Assembly (NCBI GenBank): GCA_022703375.1
Contig: JAKLDS010000027.1
Coordinates: 1-32,147 of the forward strand
Source: Deltaproteobacteria bacterium
GTDB taxonomy: Bacteria; Desulfobacterota; Syntrophia; Syntrophales; Smithellaceae
Reading direction: 5' to 3'
DNA: 32,147 bases
Positions 26,456 through 29,592 of the stretch are shown one piece after another. The stretch's first letter is position 1. The number at the start of each line of letters is the position of its first letter. The translations under genes were made by a program, and so were the position numbers. A model generated the notes under the pieces. That model was given only the letters and a program-made list of their open reading frames with translations. It was not told the origin of the DNA and did not search any database.

Positions 26456-26484
26456 TTGACATATTGCAAAGCAACATATATACA
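26456..26484 (+). promoter_or_regulatory. Promoter for a short RNA / EF-G leader
   Basis: TTGACA (26456-26461), a 17-nt spacer and TATACA (26479-26484). The -35 is consensus and the -10 keeps TATA. The predicted start is ~26490. Confidence 0.6.
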
Positions 26485-26489
26485 ACTCG

Positions 26490-26559
26490 CGAATTTAAGG
26501 CTCGTTAGTGATGGAAACCCCCATCTGGCAGAAGCTCTTCCAAATGAGGGGTTTTTTTT
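26490..26559 (+). ncRNA. Candidate ~70-nt small RNA or attenuated leader upstream of the EF-G gene
   Basis: A promoter at 26456-26484 is followed ~70 nt later by an intrinsic terminator. The transcript would be 26490-26559, mostly occupied by the terminator hairpin plus a ~23-nt 5' tail. It lies ~165 bp before the EF-G gene on the same strand. It could be a free small RNA or an attenuator controlling the EF-G gene. No known RNA family is recognised. Confidence 0.4.
26515..26559 (+). terminator. Intrinsic terminator in the EF-G leader
   Basis: The left arm AAACCCCCATCTGG (26515-26528) pairs with CCAAATGAGGGGTTT (26540-26554) with one bulge and one G-U/mismatch. Eight consecutive Ts (26552-26559) follow. 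The loop contains a further GAAG/CTTC inverted pair. Confidence 0.75.
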
Positions 26560-26570
26560 ATAGAGAGACA

Positions 26571-26602
26571 CAGATTCCAGAAGAGAAGCGAACTGGAATC
26601 TG
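26571..26602. repeat. 10-bp perfect hairpin between the terminator and the EF-G gene
   Basis: CAGATTCCAG (26571-26580) and CTGGAATCTG (26593-26602) are perfect inverted copies with a 12-nt purine-rich loop. No T-run follows. It may be part of the EF-G leader structure. Confidence 0.55.
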
Positions 26603-26689
26603 CTGGTCGAACTATCCCCGAGCGAAGCGAGACAAGGCAGAAAACCCGGATTTCAAAAGTGAAACGGGGCGGCGTTAAGGTAAAAAATA

Positions 26690-26724: not shown

Positions 26725-28812
26725 ATGAAGATGGATGAACAAAAAATTCGCAATATAGGCATCAGCGCTCACATTGATTCCGGCAAAACCACGCTGACCG
26801 AAAGAATTCTTTTTTATACCAAAAGAATTCACGCCATTCATGATGTCAAAGGTAAAGACGGAGTCGGAGCGACGATGGATTCCATGGAACTGGAAAAGGA
26901 GCGGGGTATTACGATAGCCTCCGCCGCTACCTACTGTGAATGGAACGGCCATGAAATAAATATCATTGACACTCCGGGACACGTTGATTTTACAATTGAA
27001 GTCGAGCGATCTCTGCGCGTACTGGACGGAGCGATTCTCGTTTTATGCGCCGTTGGCGGCGTGCAGTCCCAATCCATTACCGTTGATATGCAAATGAAAA
27101 GATACAAAGTACCATGCATTGCCTTTATTAATAAATGCGATCGCAGCGGCGCCAACCCTTTTCGCGTGATAGGCCAGCTTAAATCCAAGCTAGGACACAA
27201 TGCCGTCGCCATGCAGATTCCGATCGGCCTGGAAAATGAGGCGGAAGGAGTTGTGGATTTAGTTGCCATGAAAGCGCTATATTTTGATGGTGACAACGGA
27301 GAAATTATCCGCACGGAAGAAATCCCGCAGAAATATCGTGAAGAAGCAAAAGCTAAAAGAGATGAATTGATTGATGCCGCTTCGCTTTTTTCCGATGAGT
27401 TAACGGAAGCAATTCTGGAGGAAAAAGCAATTACGCCGGAATTACTTTATGCAGCAGTACGTAAAGGAACGCTGCAAAGAGGGATTACCCCTGTCTATAT
27501 GGGATCTGCTTATAAAAACAAAGCCATTCAGCCCCTGCTCGACGGTGTTACCCGTCTCTTGCCTTGTCCCTCCGAAGTTGAAAACGTTGCTTTGGATATG
27601 GAGAAAAACGAAGAGCCAGTCATCTTGAAGAATGATCCGGACCTGCCCATTGTAGCGCTGGCTTTCAAACTGGAAGACGGCCAATATGGGCAGCTCACTT
27701 ATATCCGCGTTTATCAGGGCACTGTCGCCAAAGGTTCCACAATTGTTAATATCCGCAACGGCAAGAAAGTCAAGGTGGGAAGAGTTGCCCGCATGCACGC
27801 CGATCAGATGGAAGAAGTGGAATATCTGCAGGCGGGATATATAGGAGCACTTTTTGGAATTGAGTGCTCTTCCGGCGATACTTTCGTTTCTCAGGGAATT
27901 AACCTAACTATGACTTCCATGTATGTTCCGAAGCCTGTTATTTCGCTTGCCATAGTGCCTAAAGACAATAAATCGCAAATGGCGATGTCGAAAGCCTTAA
28001 ACAGATTTTCCAAAGAAGATCCGACATTTAAAACATTCGTAGATCCGGAGACTAACGAAACAATCATTGAAGGAATGGGTGAGCTTCATCTGGATATATA
28101 TGTTGAAAGAATGAAGCGTGAATACAACGCTGAAGTCACTACGGGCAACCCGCGTGTTGCCTATCGTGAAACAATTACGCAACGAGCCGATTTTAACTAT
28201 ACCCATAAAAAGCAAACTGGTGGCTCCGGACAATTTGGACGTATTGCCGGTTACCTGGAACCGATCAGCGATGCCGAGTTTGTCTTTGAAAATAAAATAT
28301 TCGGCGGCGCAATTCCCACTCAATACATTCCGGCCTGCGAAAAAGGATTTAAACAGAGCATGGAAAAGGGTCCGAAACTGGAATTCCCGATTACCGGGGT
28401 CAAAGTTGTTATCAATGACGGCGCATCTCACTCGGTTGATTCATCCGATATGGCTTTCCAGGCTGCCGCACGGGGCGCTTTTAAAGAAGCTTATCTGCGG
28501 GCAAAACCTGTTATTCATGAGCCTATAATGAAAGTAGTCGTCGAGACACCTCCCGAATTTCAGGGACCGGTTATGGGGCTCTTGAATCAGCGCAGGGGCA
28601 TGATTGTCGGCTCTCAGGACGAAGGTGTACTTTGTTCCATTGAAGCACAGATGCCATTGGCGGAGATGTTCGGGTTTTCAACAGTTTTACGCTCTTCCAC
28701 TCAGGGCAAGGCGCAGTTTACCATGGAATTTGCACATTACCGGCAAGTGCCGCAATCCATCGCGGAGAAAATCGCTTTGGAAGTTGCTCAGAATAAGAAG
28801 TCTGCCGCATAA
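26725..28812 (+). CDS. fusA: Elongation factor G, mitochondrial-type (spdEFG1-like)
   Basis: This 695-aa translational GTPase drives ribosomal translocation. GTPase motifs: AHIDSGKT (15-22), [19 protein letters not shown] and INKCD (usually NKMD/NKxD). Domains II-V follow, with [12 protein letters not shown] marking domain IV. The sequence of the G domain ([20 protein letters not shown], then [20 protein letters not shown]) is strikingly like human mitochondrial EF-G1. That marks it as the spd-type EFG1 found in spirochaetes, planctomycetes and Desulfobacterota rather than canonical EF-G. It is not in a str operon. It starts at ATG 26725 behind a duplicated SD and a structured leader. Confidence 0.93.
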
Positions 28813-28890
28813 ATTACTGATATGGCAAGAAATACAGCCGTTTTAAAACGGGAAGAAAATATTATCCATTTAACTTATGAGGACATCATC

Positions 28891-29592
28891 ATGTTGAAAA
28901 AAGAAATAAAATACCGCAATCCGCTGACCAACCTCGGTTATGAACATGAAGACATCTTGCCCAACGGCGGATTTGGCGCAATTTTGGCGCATGCGGGCGT
29001 GGGTAAAACTGCTCTGCTCGTCCAGATTGCTTTAAACACAATGATTCGCGAGGAATCGGCGCTGCATTTAAGCCTGCAAGATGCGGTGAGCAAGGTTGAT
29101 GTTTGGTATCAGGAATTGTTTCAGAATATCGCGGGAAAATTCAGCGACGCGGAAGCTCAGGAATACTGGGATAAGATTCAACCCTATCGTTTTATCATGA
29201 CCTTCCGTGTAGAAAGTTTTTCGGCTGCCAATTTTGAAGAGAGACTCACCGATTTAATGCAACAGAATATTTTTAAACCCCATACCGTGCTTATTGACGG
29301 ACTGAAGTTCGATGAAGCAGGCCGCGGCCAGATGGTGCTTCTGAAAGAACTGGCGAAAAAATATTCCATGCGTGTCTGGTTTACCGTCCATGAACACCGT
29401 AATGAGGCTCCGGCTGAAAACGGCCTGCCGGTTTCTTTTCTGCATGTTGCCGATCTCTTTGATGTAATGGTTCAGCTGGAAGCCAAAGGCGATGAAGTTT
29501 ATATCAATTCCCTGAAAGGTAAATCATCCAGCGCCAAACCGCATACCCTGCGGCTTGATCCGGCGACAATGCTGATAAAGAGTGTTAAATAA
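28891..29592 (+). CDS. RecA-like P-loop ATPase of unknown role
   Basis: This protein is 233 aa from ATG 28891, 7 nt after TGAGGA. An upstream ATG at 28822 (256 aa) lacks an SD, though it lies only 9 nt after the EF-G stop. The N-terminal half has GGFGAILAHAGVGKTALLVQIALN, a P-loop with Ala for the first Gly, and VLIDGLKFDEAGRGQM as Walker B and sensor region. The C-terminal part (INSLKGKSSSAKPHTLRLDPATM) resembles the DNA-repair/KaiC-like RecA core. I recall similar uncharacterised cytoplasmic proteins in Desulfobacterota. It is probably cotranscribed with the EF-G gene; whether it acts with translation is unknown. Confidence 0.8.
   Translation: MLKKEIKYRNPLTNLGYEHEDILPNGGFGAILAHAGVGKTALLVQIALNTMIREESALHLSLQDAVSKVDVWYQELFQNIAGKFSDAEAQEYWDKIQPYRFIMTFRVESFSAANFEERLTDLMQQNIFKPHTVLIDGLKFDEAGRGQMVLLKELAKKYSMRVWFTVHEHRNEAPAENGLPVSFLHVADLFDVMVQLEAKGDEVYINSLKGKSSSAKPHTLRLDPATMLIKSVK

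Follow-up and report, generated by a model that had tools for sequence, protein, structure and literature searches.

In E. coli-like bacteria, the shared str operon ties the supply of EF-G to that of the ribosomal proteins. Autoregulation by S7 in the E. coli str operon (PMC2704228) also controls EF-G supply, in another lineage than the one considered here, and works on the rpsL-rpsG interval of the mRNA. Attenuators have been predicted before rpsL and, in streptococci, before fusA (the rpsL-leaders; PMC2965389). The rpsL motif of Candidatus Pelagibacter is a structured leader that occasionally precedes fusA; it is, however, a three-stem junction with no terminator, reported only for Candidatus P. 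ubique and marine metagenomes (PMC2704228). We focus here on another structured leader, in which a terminator precedes an EF-G gene that is separate from the str operon; neither the rpsL-leaders nor the Pelagibacter motif corresponds to it in position or in the structure described. In the literature that was searched, no report was found of attenuation of EF-G for this lineage, nor of EF-G with an antiterminator. As set out below, this module is probably a cis-acting transcription attenuator that controls a stand-alone EF-G gene of the spdEFG1 subfamily.

The window, which is the whole 32,147-nt stretch of DNA analysed, contains the EF-G gene at 26725-28812 on the + strand. Its product matches TIGR00484 with 962 bits and belongs to the mitochondrial EF-G1-like subfamily spdEFG1. 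The best match in the PDB is mitochondrial EF-G (797 bits, compared with 681 bits for T. thermophilus EF-G) and switch I carries the KDG insertion, which defines spdEFG1 (PMC3150367), so that the name given to the gene in the original prediction is supported; the PDB match is consistent with a grouping with mitochondrial EF-G1. The str operon of the same genome consists of rpsL-rpsG-tuf without fusA (L137, contig C89, 1..3400), as would be expected if spdEFG genes had replaced EFG I; an attenuator at this locus would thus control a stand-alone translocase. Two further EF-G-like genes are present elsewhere in the genome. According to PMC3150367, the spdEFG1/spdEFG2 pair is believed to stand in for EFG I in cells without it; the spdEFG1 gene therefore probably encodes the main translocase, and the paralogue on contig C80 would be either spdEFG2 or EFG I. 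The gene that follows EF-G (28822-29589, +) has almost no family match, with an AAA domain (PF13481) below the cut-off; a P-loop protein likewise follows EF-G in L036.

The promoter occupies 26456-26484 (+), with the -35 box TTGACA at 26456-26461 and the -10 box TATACA at 26479-26484, separated by a 17-nt spacer. Transcription is expected to start near 26491, about 7 nt past the -10 box. A simple consensus scan demanded the final T of the -10 box and therefore passed this promoter over; the terminator in the window was also absent from the list produced by that scan. The spacer, TATTGCaaaGCAACATA (26462-26478), forms a near-palindrome, TTGC-N3-GCAA, that is seen again in several relatives and is possibly an operator. 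Downstream, on the same strand, an intrinsic terminator lies at 26515-26559. Its stem pairs AAACCCC(C)AU-C-UGG with CCA-A-AUG-A-GGGGUUU, with UGG/CCA innermost; written as AAACCCC(C)AU...AUGAGGGGUUU, it is followed by a U-tract of eight Ts at 26552-26559. This terminator is the main structure in the predicted fold of 26486-26566 (-23.8 kcal/mol, z -1.79), its sequence is conserved across the phylum, and the RNA released on termination would be ~67 nt long.

Inspection of the DNA ahead of the start codons of EF-G orthologues in related genomes revealed a recurring leader block, GGCTCGtTtAyGGTGGATCCCCCATCTGGCAGAGAcTCTTCCAAATGnGGGGaTTTTTTT, preceded at a constant distance by a promoter with TTGACA and an AT-rich -10 box. 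A covariance model (R1) built from 15 leaders (alignment A1) matches 54 of the 155 genomes of the order, nearly all in single copy, and the R1 matches inspected lie upstream of EF-G, save for one weak match and one at a contig end. A second model (R2, from alignment A4) matches 60 of the 155 genomes of the class that were searched and, in a sample of the phylum, five further genomes from three other families, all upstream of EF-G and with 77-79% identity. When ~85,000 species genomes were scanned for the exact pattern, 18 matches came up, all of them upstream of EF-G and all in Syntrophaceae, Smithellaceae or Deltaproteobacteria MAGs. Among 16 leaders of the window's own family, identity within the core is 82% (54.5% when shuffled) and the mean pairwise identity of the promoter is 70%, whereas identity drops to the level of shuffled sequence ahead of the promoter (58.5% vs 56.7%) and in the gap between U-tract and ATG (43.5% vs 42.8%); conservation is confined to the promoter-terminator module. 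What had been predicted as a TTGACA-17-TATACA promoter is present and conserved across relatives far beyond chance, and the strong eight-T terminator between it and EF-G is real and likewise conserved beyond chance. The significance of the module lies in this conservation, as a single copy in each genome that carries it, ahead of the orthologous EF-G gene. Promoter, terminator, conservation, constant spacing, exclusive linkage to EF-G and, in many relatives, the lack of space for a further promoter can all be read directly from the sequences.

The spacing also bears on whether the module serves EF-G or stands on its own. In families f1, f20 and f21, nearly every leader places the U-tract 92-100 nt from the promoter. 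The gap that separates the U-tract from the ATG varies between 25 and 300 nt (median 61); in many genomes it is only 25-45 nt long, and a promoter cannot fit into it. In the window, a scan requiring the full -10 consensus listed nothing resembling a promoter on the + strand of this gap. Since space for a second promoter is so often lacking, EF-G would have to be made by readthrough, which in turn makes the module a cis-acting attenuator and not a separate small-RNA gene. An independent gene for a trans-acting RNA of ~67 nt, with EF-G served by another promoter, would agree with the full promoter-terminator unit and its near-constant length across genomes. It leaves no room for that other promoter in many relatives, however, and the module occurs nowhere but before EF-G, invariably in the orientation of that gene, so that we regard such a gene as very improbable. 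The original prediction had offered both a small RNA and an attenuator. In dozens of genomes a terminator separates EF-G from a conserved promoter, in many of them with too little room thereafter for another promoter, and there is a candidate antiterminator; the attenuator is thus supported and a small RNA is not needed.

Beyond the closest relatives, inspection by eye of eight other sampled families of the order revealed a structure resembling a terminator, placed after a TTGACA promoter and before the ATG, in five (L026, L027, L028, L030 and L031) and none in L029, L032 and L033. In L032, a 9-bp hairpin, GGGGAUGAU/AUCAUCCCC, is located beside the ribosome-binding site, 116 nt before EF-G, as if control had shifted to translation. 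Within the window's own family, the terminator is absent from L017 and L035, where it is dispensable.

The 10-bp hairpin that the original prediction included in the module is present, with perfect pairing between CAGATTCCAG (26571-26580) and CTGGAATCTG (26593-26602), but it lies outside the module, in a copy of a dispersed repeat (26561-26630, +) that is absent from many relatives. The core of this repeat occurs in exact form 18 times in the genome and 0 times in the control, and the whole repeat follows the layout TTTTTAATGAGACyC, compensating hairpin, GTCGAAYTATCCC, CGAGCGAAGCGAG; the copy here also holds GTCGAACTATCCC at 26606-26618. A similar repeat sits between U-tract and ATG in some relatives and is missing from others. 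The copies at L141, L147, L152 and L154, as well as that in the window, begin right after the U-tract of an intrinsic terminator, which suggests that the repeat prefers insertion directly after such tracts.

Within the module, the terminator stem is the most conserved sequence, and its conservation exceeds what termination needs. Counted in fixed columns, the stem has no two-sided compensatory changes, because its sequence hardly varies, and column-wise covariation on a MAFFT alignment was uninformative, given a nearly invariant stem and shifting helix registers. By eye, some relatives have the stem rebuilt with other sequence, such as GACACCCC/GGGGUGUC in L079 and L080, and in L077-L080 the 5' half is conserved while the inner 3' arm changes.

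In folds computed without the 3' arm of the terminator, many leaders pair an upstream element with the segment right after UGG, and the resulting hairpin encloses the 5' arm of the terminator. In the window, the upstream strand of this candidate helix, P1, is the 5' element GGCUC at 26499-26503 (+), and its partner is GAAGCU at 26531-26536, with one bulged A. Inside it, a hairpin P2 (GAUGG-AAACCC-CCAUC, 26510-26525, +) is predicted to form before the 3' arm is transcribed and to sequester CCAU of the terminator 5' arm; GGUGG/CCAUC is found in most relatives of the family. The complementarity of P1 is kept with different sequences in relatives, namely GCUC/GAG-A-C in f1, GUCAU/GUGAC in f20, UUUCAUG/CGUGAAA in L091, UCAUCA/UGAUGG in L028 and UUAUACC/GGUAUAA in L122. 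In a structure-based alignment made by hand, three adjacent pairs are changed on both sides between f1 (C-G, U-A, C-G) and f20 (U-A, C-G, A-U). In swap tests, the duplex became weaker when upstream elements were exchanged between lineages. A swap test over 23 leaders gave a mean of -7.0 kcal/mol for native pairs vs -5.8 kcal/mol for swapped ones (38 of 20,000 permutations, P 0.002), and one over ten families gave 125 of 20,000 permutations (P 0.006); confined to the window's own family, the test showed no signal. The swap tests thus lend the antiterminator moderate support. Compared with shuffled upstream sequence, P1 is marginal (combined P 0.03-0.04) and, in the window itself, not significant (shuffle p 0.91), and folds of the nascent leaders are on average no stabler than shuffles (mean z -0.51). 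An antiterminator that pairs the 5' element with the terminator loop is likely by comparison of leaders; it stands out in several divergent families, but its signal in the window is weak. A pseudoknot with the terminator loop in place of this antiterminator is less likely, since pairing of the upstream strand takes in UGG or both inner arms as well in f70 and f21.

These results have to be weighed against a simpler scheme, in which an unregulated attenuator or leaky roadblock merely sets the level of EF-G at a fixed ratio, with no switching antiterminator. Such a scheme would be in line with nascent folds no stabler than shuffles, with the weakness of P1 in the window and with the absence of aptamer-like conserved sequence outside the terminator. 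On the other hand, it does not call for loop complementarity upheld by different upstream sequences in divergent families, for a 5' half that is kept in L077-L080 while its inner partner changes, or for stem conservation past the needs of termination, and we consider it unlikely. We infer instead that the balance of readthrough is regulated.

Several candidate mechanisms for such regulation were considered. First of all, the frame at ATG 26511 does exist (55 codons plus stop, encoding METPIWQKLFQMRGFFYRE...), although it opens not within the 10-bp hairpin, as had been stated, but upstream of it, at the base of the terminator region. Ribosome-mediated attenuation through a leader peptide encoded there might be suggested by a potential GTG, ATG or TTG start at the homologous place in ~43 of 53 leaders and by a frame end that coincides with the EF-G start in some relatives. 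The frame shifts among relatives inside the conserved block, however (DPPSGRDSS vs DPPIWQRLF), with relatives reading another frame, VDPPSGRDSSKCG..., and it is halted after 6-11 codons in L015, L074, L078, L079 and L091. Its end positions are scattered, with distances to the ATG nearly uniform modulo 3 and hence no consistent relation to the EF-G start, and a clear Shine-Dalgarno sequence was not seen by eye. The proposed leader peptide is accordingly dropped, and attenuation of this kind is given almost no credence. Second, the leader is short and structured, has internal loops and carries a terminator that could serve as expression platform, which would suit a metabolite riboswitch with the antiterminator hairpin as its aptamer. 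Yet Rfam 15 gave no match at gathering score for a known riboswitch, T-box or r-protein leader, and relaxing the threshold to E 10 brought up just three eukaryotic families at chance level, each of them on the opposite strand and outside the module; the internal-loop nucleotides vary by family (GAUUAC, GUUUAU, CAACA), unlike those of known aptamers. A riboswitch is thus improbable. Two further candidates were set aside: a T-box, as GGUGGAU resembles the T-box UGGN bulge but UGG is lost in L020, L025, L084 and L090 and Rfam is silent, and a CsrA site, as the GGA in the loop is not conserved.

For a regulated attenuator, the following sequence of events can be proposed. RNA polymerase would begin ~7 nt after the -10 box and, as the leader emerges, the 5' element would pair with the future terminator-loop segment, enclosing the terminator 5' arm; in the window's own family, GAUGG/CCAUC would sit inside this antiterminator fold. 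If synthesis of the 3' arm then displaced the antiterminator, the GC stem would form, polymerase would stop at the U-tract and the ~67-nt RNA would be freed. Should the antiterminator persist, or be stabilized by a bound factor, polymerase would continue into EF-G. The signal may, as a guess, be a translation-linked RNA-binding factor, either a ribosomal protein or EF-G itself. Such a factor is favoured over a metabolite because there is no conserved aptamer of the metabolite type and the internal loops vary while the terminator stem is conserved. It is conceivable, though doubtful, that the conserved stem CAUC-UGG...CCA-A-AUG is itself bound by a translation-linked factor (EF-G or a ribosomal protein?) and represents a new class of regulatory RNA; if true, this would amount to feedback control of the translocase where EF-G has left the str operon.

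The genome analysed here uses spdEFG1 and has lost the link that the str operon provides between EF-G and the ribosomal proteins. An attenuator before spdEFG1, common to several families of the phylum, offers a testable answer to how translocase and ribosomes are balanced, and the module is probably an on/off valve for EF-G in these uncultured anaerobic bacteria. The leader also constitutes a new RNA motif for annotation. In its proposed switching, it resembles the greA/rnk leaders and the expression platforms of riboswitches, where the 5' half of a terminator likewise pairs alternatively with an upstream strand; unlike these, it has no known aptamer or protein site that could be recognised. 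It resembles the rpsL-leaders in having a premature intrinsic terminator and a proposed antiterminator before a translation-factor gene. The rpsL-leaders, on the other hand, lie inside the str operon and were reported to share no globally conserved sequence or structure (PMC2965389), whereas the EF-G leader precedes spdEFG1 outside a fusA-less str operon and its terminator is conserved across several families of the phylum.
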